Virus record (IMG/VR): IMGVR_UViG_3300035670_000170
Location: 1-64,000 of that record
Strand: one strand, 5' to 3'
DNA from: a virus
DNA length: 64,000 nt
Part shown: positions 12,942 to 30,140 of the stretch, piece by piece
Numbering within the stretch: the stretch's first letter is position 1
Layout: every line of letters begins with the position of its first letter
Position numbers and translations under genes: made by a program
Notes under the pieces: generated by a model
Databases searched by the model: none
Seen by the model: the letters and a program-made list of their open reading frames with translations, nothing else
What the model was told of the DNA's origin: nothing

Positions 12942-13251
12942 TTTCTTTGATTTTACTTGTTCTACGTTTACGATTGCCTTTGGGTTGCGAAAATTCCGAA
13001 ATACTTTTCACCTTTCCAACTTTTATTAGGTCGAAAGTTCTTTTCTGTCGGTTATTCATTCGCCTAACGGATGAGTGGTGGATGAGGATAGGCGTAACGA
13101 TTTGCCCGTCATCCTTTTGGTACTGTGGCATAGCAAAACGGGCGCCCACCCAAAAATAGTCCGGCATATTCTCATCTCCCATTGGTATGACAACACACCC
13201 ATTGACGTGTCTTACTTCTATCACGTCTACTTCTATTACGTAGTATGCCAT
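12928..13251 (-). CDS. Hypothetical basic protein with duplicated leader
   Basis: 107 residues from the ATG at 13251 (MAYYVIEVDVIEV). Beta-rich N-terminus and very basic C-terminus (KGNRKRRTSKIKENGKI), suggesting nucleic acid contact. Its upstream 54 bases are almost identical to those before the HTH gene at 14217, so the two may share control. An exact motif copy (F) at 13131-13146 encodes GARFAMP. Confidence 0.6.
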   Translation of the reverse strand: MAYYVIEVDVIEVRHVNGCVVIPMGDENMPDYFWVGARFAMPQYQKDDGQIVTPILIHHSSVRRMNNRQKRTFDLIKVGKVKSISEFSQPKGNRKRRTSKIKENGKI

Positions 13252-13302
13252 AGCTTGAATGGTTAAAATTGACACGTTTGCACTTGGTTCTTTTCACTAT
13301 CA
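13249..13302. repeat. Duplicated leader/control element, copy 1
   Basis: 54 bases matching 14430-14483 with about one difference, covering start codon and upstream region of the gene at 12928. Confidence 0.8.
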
Positions 13303-13307
13303 TAAAA

Positions 13308-13332
13308 AGCTGTCCGGTGTTAGCGGACAACT
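13308..13332. promoter_or_regulatory. Imperfect palindrome upstream of duplicated leader
   Basis: AGCTGTCCG-gtgtta-GCGGACAACT; a degraded version of the perfect palindrome at 14495 and in the same place relative to the leader. Confidence 0.5.
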
Positions 13333-13344
13333 GCGGGGGTCGGG

Positions 13345-13807: not shown

Positions 13808-13903
13808 TCAGCCATACGTCACCCACATAAGGCCAAACATCACCAAGGCAATGAACACAACATACAACACTATGTACAATAACACGGTTACAATGGTTCT
13901 CAT
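13808..13903 (-). CDS. Membrane microprotein 1 (31 residues)
   Basis: MRTIVTVLLYIVLYVVFIAL and so on: nearly all of the peptide is one hydrophobic helix ending in WVTYG. The ATG overlaps the TGA of the upstream gene as ATGA, so translation is probably coupled. It is clearly paralogous to the 45-residue microprotein at 14536 (shared TVLLYI-LY, FIALV). Role unknown; inner-membrane location inferred. Confidence 0.65.
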   Translation of the reverse strand: MRTIVTVLLYIVLYVVFIALVMFGLMWVTYG

Positions 13904-14216: not shown

Positions 14217-14432
14217 TCAAAACCCATATTTCCGCATAACAGACAATATACGTTCGCCCTGCTTTACTGTCATCTGACGCGTACCGTTCAACACACCATT
14301 GATATAAAAGGATGTAGTACCCGCTTCAATGGCTATGCCCTTTTTATTTATGCCGGGGCGGGAGAAAAATTCCTGCATCCTCTTTACGGTGTCTTCGTCT
14401 ACCTTCGGCATCAATTTTCTTTTTCTTTTCAT
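14217..14432 (-). CDS. Small helix-turn-helix regulator
   Basis: 71 residues from the ATG at 14432 (MKRKRKLMPKV). After a basic N-terminus the segment GIAIEAGTTSFYINGVLNGTRQMTVKQ reads as a Xre/lambda repressor-like helix-turn-helix, followed by a helix ERILSVMRKYGF. It probably binds DNA upstream of itself, where a duplicated leader and a perfect palindrome lie, and could control the two genes sharing that leader. Confidence 0.65.
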   Translation of the reverse strand: MKRKRKLMPKVDEDTVKRMQEFFSRPGINKKGIAIEAGTTSFYINGVLNGTRQMTVKQGERILSVMRKYGF

Positions 14433-14483
14433 AGCTTGAATGGTTAAATTTGACACGTTTGCACTTGGTTCTTTTCACTATCA
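14430..14483. repeat. Duplicated leader/control element, copy 2
   Basis: Covers the HTH start codon and upstream region; see copy at 13249. The repeat includes GACACGTTTGCACTTGG. Confidence 0.8.
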
Positions 14484-14494
14484 CTATCACGCAA

Positions 14495-14519
14495 AGCTGT
14501 CCGATTTTATCGGACAGCT
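14495..14519. promoter_or_regulatory. Perfect palindrome, candidate operator
   Basis: AGCTGTCCGAT-TTT-ATCGGACAGCT, 11-base perfect arms. No T-run on either side, so an operator or mRNA hairpin is more likely than a terminator. Confidence 0.6.
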
Positions 14520-14535
14520 ATGGGGTTGGTTGTTG

Positions 14536-14673
14536 TCAGGACCCATACTTGTTTGTTACGGACGCCCATACGCAAAAAAACAATACAAGAGCTATAAACA
14601 TGGAGTAAAGCAATATGTACAATAACACAGTCAGTGCCGCGCGCCCACACGGTCGCAATCGTTTACGCGTCAT
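14536..14673 (-). CDS. Membrane microprotein 2 (45 residues)
   Basis: A basic N-terminus (MTRKRLRPCGR) is followed by a long hydrophobic segment (ALTVLLYILLYSMFIALVLF) and a short polar tail. The ATG at 14673 lies 11 bases inside the end of the amidotransferase gene in another frame, implying coupled translation. Paralogous to microprotein 1. Positive-inside topology predicts a cytoplasmic N-terminus. Confidence 0.65.
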   Translation of the reverse strand: MTRKRLRPCGRAALTVLLYILLYSMFIALVLFFCVWASVTNKYGS

Positions 14674-15511
14674 AATGCTCCTCCGCGTTTCCTGTGCTTA
14701 TTTCGCGCTGAATGAGTGCCGGAAGTTTAGAAAGGTCGTAACATATCAGGTAATTCGCCCACTCTTCTATGTACTGAAATGCCTGTTCGTTTGTGCAGCC
14801 AATAACGGCAATTACTTTTTTTACACTTGCTTCAGTAACTCCTTCGTAAAAAAACGATAACTCTTCTGTAAGTTCATGAATGGTTGTGCCGTCCTCCTCT
14901 GTTTCGTATTTGTATGCCCAATAATCCCAGCCCGCGCTCTTCCCTGTTTTGCTTCTCTTCTCATTGCCGAACCATACAAAATCGTTGTTTCTTTTGTGAC
15001 TGTCATTGCTGAACCAATTACCGTTCTCCCACTTGCCGGCCTCTTCGTTAATTATATCGTGCCCCCCCTTTGAGTTTAGAAACAAAAGTTTTGATGAGCC
15101 GATATAAGACGATATTAGTTCCCTCTGAACCTCGTTTTTTAGAAAGTCATTAGGCAATCGTTTAAGCATTTCGTTGAAGTGGAATGTATCTGACCGTAAA
15201 TTGTCGCCAAGGCCGGAGATTATTCCGTTGTGAACAAATCCCAAGTTTTCAGAAACAAAAAACGGGTGAAGATTTACGTACTTTTCGTGACCGCTTGTAG
15301 CTATTCGGAAGTGCAGCACTATTTTGCCCTGTATGGATGCGCGCACCGTTTTATATCGTTTCTTAAACTCATCGAAATTGTAACTCTTAAACTCGTACAG
15401 TTTGCCGTTGTCGGAAAATAACATTCCGGCTCCTTCGGGGTTGTTGTCCCAACTATTTTTCAACTCGTTGTCAGTTATTACGCCTTTGGCGTTCAAAATT
15501 GCTATACACAT
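14663..15511 (-). CDS. Class II glutamine amidotransferase-like protein
   Basis: 282 residues. The N-terminal Cys2 (MCIAIL) is the expected nucleophile after removal of Met1; NPEGAGMLF, LHFRIATSG and FVHNGII are the other Ntn-hydrolase amidotransferase motifs, all in the first 110 residues. It would release ammonia from glutamine for a partner enzyme. The partner is very likely the amidoligase just upstream. The C-terminal 170 residues are not recognised. Leader AAAAAAATAGAAACC is shared with neighbours. Confidence 0.75.
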   Translation of the reverse strand: MCIAILNAKGVITDNELKNSWDNNPEGAGMLFSDNGKLYEFKSYNFDEFKKRYKTVRASIQGKIVLHFRIATSGHEKYVNLHPFFVSENLGFVHNGIISGLGDNLRSDTFHFNEMLKRLPNDFLKNEVQRELISSYIGSSKLLFLNSKGGHDIINEEAGKWENGNWFSNDSHKRNNDFVWFGNEKRSKTGKSAGWDYWAYKYETEEDGTTIHELTEELSFFYEGVTEASVKKVIAVIGCTNEQAFQYIEEWANYLICYDLSKLPALIQREISTGNAEEHYDA

Positions 15512-15550
15512 GGTTTCTATTTTTTTATTTGTTGTTACTTTATTTTATTG

Positions 15551-16768
15551 TTATCCCACGTCCTCGCCCTCGTATTCCTTTGTGAATTTTATCAGTCTGT
15601 TTTCAAGTTCTTGCATCCTTTCAAGCGTCGTGTACTGTTCCTGAATTAAAGGTTTCAACGTATCGCGGAAATTTAGAAACGACTGTCTCGGGCAGTCTGT
15701 GGGGTTATTGCAGATATACTCTATCAGACGCGTCCTCCACATCAGCGTATCAAAATTCGGAACAGCGCTAATTATCCGAATTTCTATCCTGTTTGAATGT
15801 ATGCGGATGGCTTGGTATTTCGCATTGTCGTTTTTCAGGTCGGCATTGCTTTTCCCTTTACTGTAATCTTTGTTCACTCGTCCAAAGTAAAGAGCATAAA
15901 ATAGTGGCGTATATCCCTTCACCTTATCAAAAAACTCCATGCCAGAAAGTCCCGATTCGCTAACATTTATATGCCCTCCGCACCTTTCTGACTTGTCAGC
16001 GTTGATATGCCGCATCAGTGTTTTGTTGTCCTTTATTGTTTCGCGTATCTTGTCGGGCGCAAGTTCAAAAATGGGGCTAACGAGTTCAAATCCTGTATCA
16101 CTGTCTAAACTTCCGTCCCTTTCTTTTATCCAATATGGGCACGTTTCGTTAAATTCACTAATCATCAGTGAATTTCTTACATCTTCATCCTCCTTCTCTA
16201 TTTCGTAGCCAATAAAAAACTTGGGGTTTTCTGTAAATTTAACAACATGACCCCTTTCGCCATCGTGGTATCCAATCACATACTCCTCCTCCGGTTCGTA
16301 GTGGTACTCTTGGTCGGACTCCCAGAAGTACGCGTTGTCAATATGTGTTATATCACCGTCATACATCACCACTAAATCGTGATACTCCAGCGCATCGTCA
16401 TCGTAATAATCGCCCCGATACTCATGTAATCCCGCATCACTAACCGCCGTTTCACTGTATATGGACTGTCCGCGGCCTACATACACATCTCGAAAATCGC
16501 TCGTATGTTCTTCGTGATATTCGCAGAACGCCACATCCTCAAGTAGGCGAACATCACCCTCTAACGTTATACAATAACTATCATGCGAATAGGCCTGCCT
16601 ATCGTGAAAAAATACTTCGTCATTCGCGCACTGTTCAGCCGTGCAGGTTTCATCCTTTATTCCGGCAATAATAGCGGGCAAATGGTTGCTATGCACGTTC
16701 ACAATTTCGCGGGCCTGTTCTTTGTCGTCGCAAATTGTCAGCAGGTCTCTTAATTCCTTGGTTTTCAT
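15551..16768 (-). CDS. Amidoligase-family (glutamine synthetase-fold) protein
   Basis: 405 residues. The C-terminal two thirds carry the amidoligase signature order: FFIGYEIEKED, KERDGSL..DTGFELVSPIF, CGGHINVS and RIEIRIISAVPNFDTLMWR. These enzymes form amide bonds from a carboxylate and an amine using ATP. The N-terminal 180 residues are unusual: acidic, rich in Tyr, His and Asp, with repeated patterns (LEDVAFCEYHEEHT, YYDDDALEYHDLV, YHYEPEEEYV). It may modify a peptide or cell-wall component together with the amidotransferase. Substrate unknown. Confidence 0.7.
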   Translation of the reverse strand: MKTKELRDLLTICDDKEQAREIVNVHSNHLPAIIAGIKDETCTAEQCANDEVFFHDRQAYSHDSYCITLEGDVRLLEDVAFCEYHEEHTSDFRDVYVGRGQSIYSETAVSDAGLHEYRGDYYDDDALEYHDLVVMYDGDITHIDNAYFWESDQEYHYEPEEEYVIGYHDGERGHVVKFTENPKFFIGYEIEKEDEDVRNSLMISEFNETCPYWIKERDGSLDSDTGFELVSPIFELAPDKIRETIKDNKTLMRHINADKSERCGGHINVSESGLSGMEFFDKVKGYTPLFYALYFGRVNKDYSKGKSNADLKNDNAKYQAIRIHSNRIEIRIISAVPNFDTLMWRTRLIEYICNNPTDCPRQSFLNFRDTLKPLIQEQYTTLERMQELENRLIKFTKEYEGEDVG

Positions 16769-16798
16769 GGTTTCTATTTGTTTATTTGTTTTACGTTG

Positions 16799-16829
16799 TT
16801 TTGTGCCGTTGTGTTACCAAATCGGGCGC
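16799..16829 (+). repeat. 31-base direct repeat, copy 1
   Basis: TTTTGTGCCGTTGTG followed by the dispersed motif; repeated at 17113-17143. Confidence 0.8.
16814..16829 (+). repeat. Dispersed motif copy, form F
   Basis: Exact copy directly after the stop of the 25-residue ORF at 16831 (minus strand). Confidence 0.85.
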
Positions 16830-24957: not shown

Positions 24958-25869
24958 ATGCGCTTACTTCACATTGGCCTACACGCTGGCAGAAACCCGC
25001 GCAATGGCTTTCAGGGATCGCTATCCAATGCCTTTGATGTTTTAGAGATACCCGACGGCACCCCGAGCCTATCCGATGTCGTTGTAGACAGGGTAGACCG
25101 ATTTAAGCCCGACCTTGTGTTTATGCAGATTCAGCGCGATGGCGTCATTGACCCACAGGTGGTGGAGTGGCTATCTGAAAGAACCCGTGTGATAAACTGG
25201 ACGGGGGACGTGCGTAAGGACGTCCCTGAATGGATGGTGGATATAGCCCAGTGGTGTGTCACGTCGTTTAGCAACATGACGGACGTTAAGAAAGTCAGGG
25301 CTATGGGTTATGAATCGGAGTACCTACAAATAGGCTTTGACCCCACGATATTCTGTTCAGGGGACGTGGCGTTTAGAAAGAAGGACGTTGTGTTTATGGG
25401 TAATCACTACAAGGGTATGTTCCCCCTTAGTGACTTTAGGATTGATGCCGTACAGCGGTTATATTCAGAGTTCCCTAATGCCTTTGGCGCATGGGGCAGT
25501 AGCCTACCTGTTAGCGAAGGTAGCACTGGTTATAGCCAACACCTTGAGGCTGCGATTTATCGGGGCGCCCGAATTGGTATCAACATCAGCCACTTCGACT
25601 ACGAAATGTACAGTTCAGACCGTATGTTCAGGATGATGGGTAGCGGGGTGATGTGCCTGTCGCACCACTTTAAGGGCATTGAGGATATGTTCACGGTGGG
25701 GGAACACCTTGATACGTTCAAGACCGTTGACGAAATGGTTGATAAGGTGCGGTTCTACTTGCAGAACCCAAAACGGGCGGCGGCAATAGCCATGAACGGG
25801 TGCATCCACGTCCACAAGAACTACACCTACGATCACATGGTAGCAAACATTAAAAACATGGGTAAATGA
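24958..25869 (+). CDS. GT-B type glycosyltransferase (CgeB-like)
   Basis: 303 residues. The pattern of a two-lobed GT-B enzyme is visible: N-terminal LLHIGLHAGRNPRNG, FKPDLVFMQIQRDG, then the C-terminal nucleotide-sugar side with ARIGINISHFDYEMYSSDRM, FRMMGSGVMCLS and FKTVDEMVDKVRFYL. This matches spore maturation/CgeB-like transferases. It probably transfers a sugar from an NDP donor. Two motif copies lie inside (25565, R; 25771, F). First gene of a six-gene transfer block. Confidence 0.75.
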   Translation: MRLLHIGLHAGRNPRNGFQGSLSNAFDVLEIPDGTPSLSDVVVDRVDRFKPDLVFMQIQRDGVIDPQVVEWLSERTRVINWTGDVRKDVPEWMVDIAQWCVTSFSNMTDVKKVRAMGYESEYLQIGFDPTIFCSGDVAFRKKDVVFMGNHYKGMFPLSDFRIDAVQRLYSEFPNAFGAWGSSLPVSEGSTGYSQHLEAAIYRGARIGINISHFDYEMYSSDRMFRMMGSGVMCLSHHFKGIEDMFTVGEHLDTFKTVDEMVDKVRFYLQNPKRAAAIAMNGCIHVHKNYTYDHMVANIKNMGK

Positions 25870-26621
25870 AGGTATGCTCATACATCCCACTTCACTACGG
25901 GCGTGAGTACCTACGTGAAAGCATAACGTCGTTCTACGACTTAGTGGATGAAATACACATCCTATACACGTCTAAGCCGTCCTACGGGTCGTCAACAAGC
26001 ATGGCGTGTCCCGAAACAGAGATTGAACTACGTTCGACAGCCGAAGTAGCAGCGGGTAGTAAGCTGGTGTGGCACAACGTGGATGCTTATAGCGAAGGTC
26101 AGCACAGGGGTATTGCCAATAGGATACTTCAGTCGTGTGATGTCCTATTCACCAGTGATGCCGATGAGGTGTGGTTCCAAGACCCGCTATCGTTAGCCAT
26201 TGAACAGGCTTTTAATGACAAAGACCACAACAGGTTTGCCGTAACGGGTAAGATTGATTTGTGGCGCTCGTTTAAGTATCAAATGGTTGACGGCTTTACC
26301 CCCGTTAGGATACTAACCAACGGTGCCGACGGTCAAGCCACCGTACACGCGCCATACCTACATTTTGGGTACGCGCAGCGATTGAACGTCATTGAGTATA
26401 AAATGCACATCCACGGGCATAAAGGGGAGATTATTTCCTTGCACGGGTCGGTGGATAACTACTTGGACAAGCTACGAAAGTGGACACCCGATAATAATGT
26501 TGAGGACTGTTACCACCCTGCAAGCCGTGATATTTGGCGTCAGGCCGAACCGTTTAACAAGTGGTTTATGCCAGCGTTCATGCAGATTCACCCAAACTTT
26601 GAAAAGGAGATTATCGAATGA
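25866..26621 (+). CDS. GT-A type glycosyltransferase
   Basis: 251 residues, ATGA overlap with the previous gene. GT-A features: N-terminal CSYIPLHYGREYLRESI, a DxD-like motif in FTSDADEVW (metal and NDP-sugar binding, about residue 98), and a His-rich C-terminal region (MHIHGHKGE). No membrane segment, so a soluble transferase. Target unknown: surface sugars, virion protein or DNA. Confidence 0.7.
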   Translation: MKVCSYIPLHYGREYLRESITSFYDLVDEIHILYTSKPSYGSSTSMACPETEIELRSTAEVAAGSKLVWHNVDAYSEGQHRGIANRILQSCDVLFTSDADEVWFQDPLSLAIEQAFNDKDHNRFAVTGKIDLWRSFKYQMVDGFTPVRILTNGADGQATVHAPYLHFGYAQRLNVIEYKMHIHGHKGEIISLHGSVDNYLDKLRKWTPDNNVEDCYHPASRDIWRQAEPFNKWFMPAFMQIHPNFEKEIIE

Positions 26622-27253
26622 GGAAGGTGATGGTTGGTGTTCCGGTAATCTACTGTGATGAGTGCGTTAGGGACTGCCTTGCCACGCTGAACCAGTTTGA
26701 CCATGTGTTTATCGTGGATAACTGCGCGACGGCTGGTATAAAGGCCATGATTGAGCCGTATGATAAGGTTGTTAACCCACAGAACGTCTATGTGAACCCC
26801 GCATGGAATCAGATAATGTACAGGTTCTTACATTCGGAGTTTGACGTACTGGTTATCCTTAATTCAGATATGGTGCTACGCGGTGATGTAGCCGATCAGA
26901 TACGCGCAAAAGATTGGGATGAGTTACTTGTGGTGCCGCTGCCAAACATGGTCAATGATTTCGTGTATGGTGTGGGGGCAAACCTTAGTGTGACGGACGG
27001 TGTGCCGGGGACGATGATTGTCCTGACCCGCAAGATGGTCGAACAGGTGTACCCCATACCGCAGGATATTCTACTGTGGTTTGGTGACAACTGGATATAC
27101 GACAGGCTACGCAAACGCGGCTACACCACCACCATATACCACGGGTTACAAGGCAAACACGGCGGCAGTAGGAGCATAGTGGCACTACCGGAAGCACATG
27201 AAATAATCGAAAAAGACAAATTAGCATGGAAACACGTAAAGACAAACCTGTAA
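26618..27253 (+). CDS. Glycosyltransferase family 2-like protein
   Basis: 211 residues, overlapping the previous stop. N-terminal VMVGVPVIYCDECVRDCLATL and HVFIVDNCAT are typical of family 2 folds; ILNSDMVLRGD holds the acidic metal site; WFGDNWIYDRLRKRGY is the C-terminal acceptor-side motif. Smaller than usual family 2 enzymes. Works presumably with the neighbouring transferases. Confidence 0.7.
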   Translation: MRKVMVGVPVIYCDECVRDCLATLNQFDHVFIVDNCATAGIKAMIEPYDKVVNPQNVYVNPAWNQIMYRFLHSEFDVLVILNSDMVLRGDVADQIRAKDWDELLVVPLPNMVNDFVYGVGANLSVTDGVPGTMIVLTRKMVEQVYPIPQDILLWFGDNWIYDRLRKRGYTTTIYHGLQGKHGGSRSIVALPEAHEIIEKDKLAWKHVKTNL

Positions 27254-27807
27254 GACACGACGTAATTAACTACCTTATTGAGCGCTATGGGTATAAGAAA
27301 TACCTTGAGATAGGTGTTCAGTATATGGTTAACTGGAATGAGATTAAGTGCGAAACAAAGGTCGGGGTGGAGCCTAACCCACTACCTGACGAGCGCATAT
27401 TTAGGATGACGTCAGATGCTTTCTTTGAGCAGAACAAAGATGATTTTGACATTGTGTTTATTGACGGCGACCACACCTACGCCCAAGCGAAGAAAGACTT
27501 TCTAAACGCAGCGGCAGTGCTAAAGAATGGTGGTGTGATTGTTTTCCACGACACCAACCCCATTGACGAAACATGGACAAACCCATATCAAAACGGCACT
27601 GTCTACAAGGTTATTATGGACATCAGGACTGACCTTTACTTCCTTGTTGTCACCCACAACCACGACCACGGGGTATGCTGTGTGTTCCCTGACAACAAGG
27701 GGGATAGAATGGATTGCACGGGGTTCACGTTTGATGATTTTGATAAGAACAGGGTTAGGATACTGAACCTGTGCGATTGGGATATGTTCAAAGATATGCT
27801 ACCATGA
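27226..27807 (+). CDS. SAM-dependent methyltransferase
   Basis: 193 residues, 28-base overlap upstream. Class I Rossmann fold markers: YLEIGVQY (motif I region), VGVEPNP (acidic end of strand 2), FDIVFIDGDHTYAQAKKDF (motif with IDGDH, as in Methyltransf_24), and GGVIVFHDTNP. Such enzymes often O-methylate sugars, which fits the surrounding glycosyltransferases. Confidence 0.75.
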   Translation: METRKDKPVRHDVINYLIERYGYKKYLEIGVQYMVNWNEIKCETKVGVEPNPLPDERIFRMTSDAFFEQNKDDFDIVFIDGDHTYAQAKKDFLNAAAVLKNGGVIVFHDTNPIDETWTNPYQNGTVYKVIMDIRTDLYFLVVTHNHDHGVCCVFPDNKGDRMDCTGFTFDDFDKNRVRILNLCDWDMFKDMLP

Positions 27808-28430
27808 ATTGTGCGGCTGTAATCATTGAAGGACGTCGGTTAGGGTTTTCGGCTACCCTTGACATCATCACAAGGCACACAAAGTACCTTGAGGACTTTG
27901 ATGTTATTGGCTATTGCTCCAACGAGAACCACATGGAGATGTTTAGCGCTGGTGCTGAAATAATAACTATCCTACCGGAACTATCGGGGAAGTTTGACTT
28001 TAGGCGGTACAATCAGTTGCTTACGTCGGAGTGGTTTTGGTTTGGGTTAGCGGACTACGACAGGGTGTTAATCTTCCAACACGATTCAGGGCTGTTACGT
28101 GATGGCATAGAGGAGTTTTTGGAATACGACTATGTAGGTGCGCCTTGGGGGTTTCAGGAACATGGGGGTAATGGGGGGCTTAGTATTAGGAACCCAGAGG
28201 CTATGCTGAAAGTTATCCGTAAGGTGCCATATTTTGAGAGTGTACATGGCAATGAGGATGTGTACTTTTGTAATGCGATGAAGGAACTTGGGATGAACCT
28301 TGCCCCGCGTGATGTGTGCGCCCGTTTTGCTATCGAAAGTATCCTTGAGTACGGGACACTTGGATACCACGCAATAGATAAGTATTTTAGCAAAGAAATT
28401 GTAAGTAAAATTAAATCACAGTATGCCTAA
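27804..28430 (+). CDS. DUF5672-like glycosyltransferase-associated protein
   Basis: 208 residues from the ATG at 27804 (ATGA overlap). The signature LIFQHDSGLLRDGIEEFLEY, DYVGAPWG and GNGGLSIRNPEAML matches the DUF5672 family, which is found in surface polysaccharide clusters and is thought to be transferase-related. A motif copy (R) at 28318-28332 encodes CARFAI. Confidence 0.7.
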   Translation: MNCAAVIIEGRRLGFSATLDIITRHTKYLEDFDVIGYCSNENHMEMFSAGAEIITILPELSGKFDFRRYNQLLTSEWFWFGLADYDRVLIFQHDSGLLRDGIEEFLEYDYVGAPWGFQEHGGNGGLSIRNPEAMLKVIRKVPYFESVHGNEDVYFCNAMKELGMNLAPRDVCARFAIESILEYGTLGYHAIDKYFSKEIVSKIKSQYA

Positions 28431-29832
28431 CGCCCAGCTAATAACCCCGTTCTATAAGGACAAGAACCCCATTAGACATCAGGAGAATGTCGCTGCCCTG
28501 ATACACAACATCCAAGAGAGGGTATTTTGGCGCATCGTCCTTGTGGTAGATGACGTGGATTACACGCTTCAGGACGTTGTGTTACCGCCGACAGTGGAGG
28601 TGCGATACCAAAACGGGCGCCCCACCTACAACGACCTATTTGCAATAGCCAACGAAGCCCCTATACCATGCGTATCCATTATCGCAAATACTGATATTTA
28701 CTTCAACAGGGACAGCATAAACTTAATTGAGGCTACTATCAATAGCGAAACCTGCTTTGCATTAAGCCGATGGGACGTTGACGACAGTGGTGGCGCAACA
28801 CTATACGACCACTGGGATAGCCAAGACGCATGGGTGTTCTACGGGGCTATAAGGGCTATTGACGGTAGTTTCTATTTAGGGAAACCCGGCTGTGATAACG
28901 CCATTGCCCACCGCATCGAAAGCGCTGGCTACAAGGTTACAAACCCATCAAAGAGCATCAAGTCGTACCACATACACCTATCGGGGCAACGTAACTACAC
29001 CCGCGCAGAGGGGGAGATCATCGAAAAGCCGTACAAGCTAATAAACCCAACGTTTATCAACGAAGAAATTTTGTCTGTATCAAAGGGTAACGTAAGGCAA
29101 AACATAGAACTACCAACACCCGAACAGCTACGGGAAATGTATTCCTATGGGGTACAGAAGAAACAGATGGCAGCTATGGCTACACGGATGCTCAAACCAC
29201 GCTACCTACTGGCGATACTGATACCAACGATGTGGAGCAGGTCGGGTACGTTCAATAAGCTGATACAAGAACTGAACTGTCAGATACGCGACGGGCGGTT
29301 TGGTGACAAGGTTATTGTCCGTCACAAGGTTGACGGTGGGGTGCTGCCGATAGGGGCTAAACGCAATGACCTTATTATGCAAGCCGACGCTAAGTACGTT
29401 ATCTTCATGGACGACGACGATATGCCATCACCCGACTATGTAGACCAACTGGTGTCGGCAATAGAGAACGGCAACCACCCCGACTGCGTGACGATTGAGT
29501 GTAACGTATATTCGTGCGTTGAGGGACACGCCCCTGAATATATGATGCGTATGGTGTACGACATCAATGAGAAAGAGGGGCAGACGCACCTGACGGCTGG
29601 CGGTGGTAGGTTACTAAGGAAATACCCCGGCCACCTATGCGCCATCAAGCGGAAGATAATGCTTAACGTACCGTTTAACGTGCTATGGGGTGACGGTGGT
29701 GACAGGAAGCGCCGTGGTGACAACGGCACCGACGTAAACCAACTGTTAGACCTAAAGCAATCGGGTCTGATAAAAAGCGCAGTCCACATTAACAAAGTAT
29801 TGTACCACTACTACTATAACCCACAAAAATGA
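28423..29832 (+). CDS. Two-domain glycosyltransferase
   Basis: 469 residues. The N-terminal half has LITPFYKDKNP, VVDDVD and NTDIYFNRD, a first GT-A-like domain; the C-terminal half has AILIPTMWSRSGTFNKLI, a clear metal motif FMDDDDMPSPDYV and GDGGDRKRRGDNG, a second family 2 domain. Both may transfer different sugars. It overlaps neighbours at both ends. A motif copy (F, AA variant) at 28605 encodes YQNGRPT. Confidence 0.7.
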   Translation: MPNAQLITPFYKDKNPIRHQENVAALIHNIQERVFWRIVLVVDDVDYTLQDVVLPPTVEVRYQNGRPTYNDLFAIANEAPIPCVSIIANTDIYFNRDSINLIEATINSETCFALSRWDVDDSGGATLYDHWDSQDAWVFYGAIRAIDGSFYLGKPGCDNAIAHRIESAGYKVTNPSKSIKSYHIHLSGQRNYTRAEGEIIEKPYKLINPTFINEEILSVSKGNVRQNIELPTPEQLREMYSYGVQKKQMAAMATRMLKPRYLLAILIPTMWSRSGTFNKLIQELNCQIRDGRFGDKVIVRHKVDGGVLPIGAKRNDLIMQADAKYVIFMDDDDMPSPDYVDQLVSAIENGNHPDCVTIECNVYSCVEGHAPEYMMRMVYDINEKEGQTHLTAGGGRLLRKYPGHLCAIKRKIMLNVPFNVLWGDGGDRKRRGDNGTDVNQLLDLKQSGLIKSAVHINKVLYHYYYNPQK

Positions 29833-30140
29833 AAATCAAAAGTTTCAAAGCCCTAAACGACTACCTGATTGTTGAGCCAGTAGTCCTAACGACAAAAACC
29901 GCAGGTGGTATATTCCTGCCCGAAACAGCCGAAGACGTGGAAAGACCGTACATCGGGAAGGTGTTAAGCGCTGGCGGCGGGTATAACACCATTGATGTAA
30001 CTGTTGACGCAGGTGAATACGTGGCGTTCAACAGGAATATCTTTACCCCGTTGACAATGGATGTGGACGGAAAGAGGATTGAACTAAAGGCCATCCGTCA
30101 GATCGACGCCCTGTGTACCTTAGAAATGGAAGATGATTAA
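29829..30140 (+). CDS. Co-chaperonin GroES-like protein
   Basis: 103 residues, normal GroES length. Conserved features: ALNDYLIVEPV at the N-terminus, the mobile loop and TAGGIFLPETAEDVERPYIGKVLSAG, then GEYVAFNRN and a final strand. It should form a heptameric cap on host GroEL to help fold phage proteins, as T4 gp31 does. No groEL gene is in the window. ATGA overlap upstream, eight-base overlap downstream. Confidence 0.8.
   Translation: MKIKSFKALNDYLIVEPVVLTTKTAGGIFLPETAEDVERPYIGKVLSAGGGYNTIDVTVDAGEYVAFNRNIFTPLTMDVDGKRIELKAIRQIDALCTLEMEDD

Follow-up and report, generated by a model that had tools for sequence, protein, structure and literature searches.

A conserved amidoligase and amidotransferase gene pair of phages, joined in one virus by an overlapping membrane microprotein

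Results

We analysed a gene unit in the virus record IMGVR_UViG_3300035670_000170, in which a predicted amidoligase and a class II glutamine amidotransferase (GATase) probably act together as one glutamine-dependent enzyme. The window, meaning the whole stretch of DNA analysed, comprises 64,000 nt of this 68,976-base record. A sequence-only reading of the window had placed three open reading frames (ORFs) here, and we confirmed all three, on the minus strand. The first (15551..16768) encodes a 405-residue amidoligase with the fold of glutamine synthetase (GS), and the second (14663..15511), which follows after a gap of 39 nt, encodes a 282-residue GATase of the N-terminal nucleophile (Ntn) type that begins Met-Cys; both were assigned by fold model, motifs and relatives. 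The third, TM1 (14536..14673), is a hydrophobic ORF that is preceded by GGAGGAGC, overlaps the end of the GATase gene by 11 nt at its start and encodes a predicted single-helix membrane microprotein of 45 residues.

The proposal that these genes share leaders holds for the two enzymes and fails for the microprotein. The A-rich leader AAATAGAAACCATG, which includes the ATG, matches exactly at the starts of the amidoligase (16766..16779, minus strand) and the GATase (15509..15522, minus strand). The only other exact copy in the window stands at the start of an unrelated 89-residue ORF (14169-13900, minus strand), and at up to two mismatches the window holds 4 matches against 0.74 expected from shuffles. 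TM1 lacks this leader and starts behind GGAGGAGCATT; it is probably co-translated with the GATase in this phage. A scan of the amidoligase-GATase region for promoters and terminators returned nothing that clearly exceeded shuffles. Ahead of the amidoligase, a 25-residue ORF (MKRYKFTPTIWGLAMEAKRYAYSFN, 16908-16831) carries a variant of the shared leader and lies upstream of a copy, at 16814, of a repeat described below.

Because both enzymes score below their Pfam cut-offs (values in the Discussion), we decided their families by relatives and structure models. The AlphaFold model of the amidoligase, built with 46 aligned amidoligases, has a mean predicted local distance difference test (pLDDT) score of 94.5, and it has a glutamine-synthetase-like fold. 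In the PDB, its top Foldseek matches are glutamine synthetases, gamma-glutamylmethylamide synthetase and YbdK. With VIA-align, the match to YbdK has a Z score of 9.4 and a root-mean-square deviation (rmsd) of 3.9 over 185 residues, and glutamine synthetases reach Z ~9, all over residues ~180-390. This region is the catalytic domain and contains the motifs GxExE (187-191), DGS (218-220), GFE (226-228), CGGH (263-266) and ExR (329-331). Residues E189, E191, G226, E228, G264-H266, R297, E329 and R331 are invariant in all 46 aligned rows. Its viral structure matches include many phage proteins named amidoligase, for example from tf, CW02 and Cellulophaga phage phi14:2. A sequence search found no experimentally solved relative. 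The family Amidoligase_2 (PF12224) is matched by 7 of the 46 aligned relatives at E<=0.01, and the amidoligases of three loci (L004, L068 and L074) score above its cut-off. We therefore file the window protein as a distant GS-fold amidoligase and not as a scored PF12224 member.

The N-terminal part of the amidoligase is as unusual as the sequence-only reading had noted. Tyr, His and Asp make up 32% of residues 45-180 against 13% of the rest, a composition common to close relatives, and in the model residues ~45-180 form, at high confidence, a series of short beta strands, a beta-repeat domain. More distant amidoligases (L068, L074, L086, L089, L094 and L097) have Cys-rich, zinc-ribbon-like arrays in its place. 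These arrays, together with a viral structural match named 'LIM domain containing protein', had prompted the idea that the window domain is a degenerate LIM or zinc-ribbon array. The evidence did not support it: residues 45-180 contain 0 CxxC, and a profile comparison with the Cys-rich N-termini of the relatives gave a probability of 0.1%, so the idea stays a guess. A second such comparison had the window amidoligase in both alignments and is no evidence.

The GATase has the features of a class II enzyme, with a nucleophilic Cys directly after Met, an Ntn fold by model and the motifs HFRxAT, HNG and SDT, which correspond to the glutaminase residues of GlmS. Cys2, HFRIAT (67-72), HP (82-83), HNG (94-96) and SDT (107-109) are invariant in 41 of 41 aligned sequences. 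Since its own scores fall below the Pfam cut-offs, we filed the protein by fold and residues; among the aligned relatives, GATase_6 is matched by 29/41 and GATase_4 by 23/41 at E<=0.01. The model (pLDDT 86.6, 41 aligned amidotransferases) resembles two proteins about equally well over residues 2-186: EgtC, with Z 14.0 and rmsd 3.3 over 162 residues, and GlmS, with Z 13.7. The amidotransferase of the phage MW202828 carries a fused gamma-glutamyl cyclotransferase (GGACT) domain (E 7.5e-18), which points to gamma-glutamyl amide chemistry.

These matches also bear on a different and rather unlikely scheme, in which the two enzymes form a gamma-glutamyl protection and deprotection, or remodelling, couple. 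The GS-fold enzyme would gamma-glutamylate an amine and the Ntn enzyme would later remove the glutamate, with no feeding of ammonia from one to the other. The top match of the GATase, EgtC, is a gamma-glutamyl-amide hydrolase that frees glutamate in ergothioneine synthesis, as described in PMC4621440; the presence of gamma-glutamylmethylamide synthetase and YbdK among the amidoligase matches, and the cyclotransferase fusion, fit the scheme as well. However, GlmS-type glutaminases match the GATase equally, and the neighbourhoods scanned show no third biosynthetic gene as a constant member. A glutamine-dependent amidoligase is our preferred reading.

How general is the pairing of the two genes? 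Scans of viral contigs with the single amidoligase or GATase sequence found no relatives. Close phage homologues came from tblastn, and a profile of four GATase sequences then detected 545 relatives in viral contigs. Of the best 80, 74 include 1300 nt or more ahead of the GATase, and in these the pairing is near-obligatory: a profile search places an amidoligase directly upstream in 60/74, and a further 10/74 have there an ORF of 410-550 residues with amidoligase motifs (all five regular-expression motifs in 8). The remaining 4 (L044, L045, L046 and L065) have the amidoligase 1283-1783 nt upstream of the GATase. The six other loci lie near a contig end (L011, L025, L070, L071, L077 and L085); the amidoligase is adjacent in L025 and cut in L077 and L085. 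Some loci elaborate the pair. The order is amidoligase-GATase-amidoligase in L055, L057, L066, L067 and L075; in L068 the whole pair is doubled in tandem, and in L074 a single GATase follows two amidoligases. L100 seemed to carry the two enzymes as one fused protein. We discounted this fusion because its junction DNA is nearly identical to that of the two-gene locus L098, which suggests a shifted frame in a single record.

The terminase family of the window is common to 9 of the 19 pair-bearing virus records tested, and the pair was detectable in none of four terminase relatives found independently (L104-L107), two of which are short fragments. The fold, the intact active sites and the near-universal pairing strongly support the view that amidoligase and GATase are one functional unit, as the sequence-only reading had proposed. 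That reading had named two ways in which it could fail, a lack of co-occurrence in related phages and a lack of any structural match to GS-fold amidoligases; we found both the co-occurrence and the match. It had also proposed a search for the three-gene set in other phages. The two-enzyme part recurs in nearly all of the viral loci compared, whereas an overlapping hydrophobic ORF follows the GATase in only 3 of 47 non-redundant loci.

TM1 itself reads as a real gene, judged by comparison with a paralogue in the window. This paralogue, TM2, encodes 31 residues (13808..13903, minus strand) and overlaps by 4 nt the end of the unrelated 89-residue ORF. The two proteins share 16/28 residues, and their alignment scores 83, where 2000 shuffles reach at most 48. 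Their genes differ 14, 5 and 17 times at codon positions 1, 2 and 3, as expected under constraint at the protein level. The alignment and the codon-position pattern are the grounds for taking TM1 as a gene. Among 32 loci (L006-L037), an overlapping hydrophobic ORF lies behind the GATase in L025, L027-L030, L034 and L035; L009 has a hydrophobic ORF there without the overlap. The 3/47 non-redundant loci compare with 6/284 control genes (p = 0.12), and a looser count gives 10/76 against 29/495. The microprotein thus recurs in one neighbourhood of the pair family as an accessory and not as a defining third member.

Does TM1 nevertheless act as a genuine third subunit and bring the two enzymes to the inner membrane? 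The sequence-only reading had suggested that the microprotein couples the product or the complex to the membrane. The overlapping start, in the window and in the seven loci named above, and the enrichment in the nearest non-redundant set (3/22 against 6/284 controls, p = 0.02) speak for such a subunit. Set against these are the overall non-redundant comparison, the absence of the microprotein after the GATase in most relatives, a non-hydrophobic ORF of ~49 residues that occupies its position in other loci, and the place of TM2 behind an unrelated gene. We regard the membrane-coupling claim as weak and a third subunit as very unlikely. TM1 is a member of a small duplicated family of its own, and it is probably an independent gene of host takeover or of the membrane.

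The soluble ORF is an observation in its own right. Small soluble ORFs of ~36-57 residues stand right after the GATase in L017, L018, L019, L021, L024, L031, L032, L036 and L037, with a consensus like MEDV-RFYEWL-K--SVHLADN, and they occupy the slot that the membrane microprotein has in other phages.

The pair is rare in cells. The GATase profile found 16 loci in bacterial genomes, with an amidoligase directly upstream in 14. Among 395 genomes of the class of the Chitinophaga hit, 2 have the pair, one being the hit genome itself and the other carrying two stops. Plasmids gave a weak match in 4 records. We scanned 96 neighbour proteins of the bacterial copies and found TraM, TraO and TraQ (conjugative transfer), resolvases, relaxases and defence-like ATPases. 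In Chitinophaga eiseniae (L088), the pair lies ~2.3 kb from a TraM gene (G003:C19:876196 versus 878497). In a Collinsella genome (L098), a full-length match to the Gabija protein GajA (E 1.3e-159) lies 2.1 kb from the pair (237808 versus 235716), and in Adlercreutzia (L094) two ORFs downstream of the pair resemble, by eye only, an AbiE pair. The GajA family also matches elsewhere, including in 10 of 14 control genomes, so only two very strong matches are meaningful, one of which (G007) is on a different contig from the pair.

This setting suggests that the function may serve the cell as well as the phage, since the rare copies sit in conjugative and in defence-rich islands. A speculative extension, which we consider improbable, is that the pair is a mobile conflict module of small size, found for the most part in phages and in rare cases in conjugative elements and accessory islands of bacteria, beside Gabija-like and AbiE-like genes. 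It would amidate a host surface or core component and so exclude other phages, and the lineage of the window would have gained a co-translated membrane microprotein.

Beyond the gene unit, the window has several other features. A repeat, TTACCAAATCGGGC, is found 31 times when both strands are read and up to two mismatches are allowed, whereas shuffles give an expectation of 0.63 (copies stand, e.g., at 1574, 9418, 12390, 13780, 14201, 16814, 17128, 18540, 32673 and 37713). Copies often lie 25-90 nt upstream of start codons and also within genes, and the right flank usually begins G(C/A). The copy at 16814..16827 (plus strand) is ~50 nt upstream of the amidoligase start and is a candidate regulatory site. 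Exact copies are absent from the related loci compared, and a scan of viral contigs found single copies per record only; the repeat therefore looks private to this phage, and it is perhaps a binding site or promoter element. Two near-identical intergenic cassettes (13249-13338 and 14430-14525) each precede a different minus-strand ORF, with a 54-nt leader that is 98% identical and an adjoining hairpin-forming stretch (AGCTGTCCGA...TCGGACAGCT) that is 80% identical over 45 nt. Beside the packaging genes, a series of genes of glycosyltransferase-like, methyltransferase-like and DUF5672 type (24958-29832) possibly serves capsid or surface glycosylation, and a co-chaperonin GroES is encoded at 29829-30140.

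Discussion

What reaction would a pair of this kind catalyse? We put a probability of about 0.6 on the reading that the pair is a two-subunit glutamine-dependent amidoligase. Two conserved enzymes, one that frees nitrogen and one that forms amides with ATP, are adjacent almost always, and they are best read as a single such enzyme. The GATase would use Cys2 to free nitrogen from a gamma-glutamyl donor, as ammonia or as a gamma-glutamyl amine. The GS-fold amidoligase would activate a carboxylate with ATP and join it to the nitrogen freed by its partner. We infer a single enzyme made of both proteins, with glutamine, the simplest choice, as the donor. By analogy with what has been published for related cassettes, the acceptor might be an envelope peptide or a host protein that is altered during infection to the advantage of the phage, although this is a guess.

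Several points weigh against this reading. A gamma-glutamyl hydrolase role, as in EgtC, would use the same GATase active site. The window amidoligase scores 13.4 bits against PF12224, below the gathering cut-off of 22, and the GATase scores 16.5 bits for GATase_4 (cut-off 23) and 16.4 bits for GATase_6 (cut-off 27). Moreover, the viral locus counts describe the best 80 of the 545 GATase relatives (L006-L085), and the profile behind them came from phages with the pair, which favours this family. Finally, the regular expressions for the amidoligase motifs, applied to 10 loci, are loose, and L078 and L083 have three of the five.

The pair might instead help nitrogen metabolism, raising glutamine and glutamate flux for phage growth, as has been claimed for Phage-ZRK32. 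PMC10945688 proposes a nitrogen role and describes growth promotion by a phage with genes for amidoligase, glutamine amidotransferase, glutathione synthase and gamma-glutamylcyclotransferase; its authors connect the effect with these genes by speculation. A specific partner or substrate is suggested by the additional N-terminal domain of the amidoligase, and we give the nitrogen explanation little credence. A glutamine-dependent amidoligase is, in our judgement, the better account.

Published work already treats the two-enzyme pair as a prediction, in phiEco32, LUZ24-like, RIO-1-like and OM43 phages, and the window is a further member. Several papers bear on it. According to PMC10580990, MEP401, MEP402 and more than 30 related genomes carry genes for a PF12224 amidoligase and a GATase. 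On their role it cites Iyer et al. 2009, for a cell-wall change against superinfection in phiEco32, and studies of Marvin, for secondary metabolites. The superinfection idea also appears in PMC5498523, where a 'peptidoglycan modification cassette' is described as conserved in phiEco32, LUZ24, PaP3, tf, RIO-1 and others. Both papers present peptidoglycan as the substrate in the form of a hypothesis. Both genes are listed in LUZ24-like phages (PMC3890496, PMC3517423), and amidoligases are reported in Clostridium prophages (PMC11318856). In a selection of Pseudomonas phage FJK (PMC11450229), missense changes had arisen in two evolved phages (15 and 30 rounds) in two adjacent genes, gp22 for an amidoligase and gp23 for an amidotransferase-like protein; other FJK genes changed too, so this indicates at most a joint change of gp22 and gp23 under selection.

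A role in the envelope or in superinfection, which the sequence-only reading had also offered, agrees with the hypothesis published for such phage pairs (PMC10580990, PMC5498523), but nothing in the present analysis shows it. In the parts of the literature retrieved on the pair, on amidoligases with superinfection and on recent amidoligase-phage work, we found no biochemical test of the pair. A search that combined the pair with a membrane protein and Bacteroidetes returned no paper. With 545 GATase relatives in one viral collection, this is a common and unexplained phage enzyme pair. The pairing, the intact active sites and the confident models make its function testable with two short genes.

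How does the window compare with its closest known systems? The phage systems of Iyer et al. 2009 (phiEco32, LUZ24-like and RIO-1-like), as represented in the papers that cite them, likewise have a GS-fold amidoligase, a relative of PF12224, beside a class II GATase. Their pairs also lie among non-structural genes, and the window amidoligase structurally matches those of tf and CW02. The window may differ from these cassettes in having a bare pair: no GGACT protein, second amidoligase or ATP-grasp protein was found among the 37 window proteins scanned, a subset of the ORFs in the 64,000 nt analysed. The OM43 phages MEP401 and MEP402 (gp06-gp07) and Mycobacterium phage Marvin (gp105-gp106) have the same gene order as the window and longer amidoligases (548 residues in MEP402). 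The MEP402 GATase is 44% identical to that of the window over residues 1-174, and amidoligase motifs are present in gp06. In contrast to the window, the two small ORFs after the MEP402 GATase include no hydrophobic microprotein.

Two cellular systems resemble the window more distantly. EgtC shares the Ntn class II amidotransferase fold of the window GATase and acts on a gamma-glutamyl amide. Its pathway partner EgtA is a gamma-glutamylcysteine synthetase and is not known to be a PF12224 relative. No Egt genes were seen near the pair. In the ergothioneine pathway it is EgtA that makes the gamma-glutamyl bond (PMC4621440). GlmS and other glutamine-dependent synthases have a glutaminase domain and residues like those of the window GATase. 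However, where they carry a sugar isomerase or other synthase domain, the window has a separate GS-fold ligase instead.

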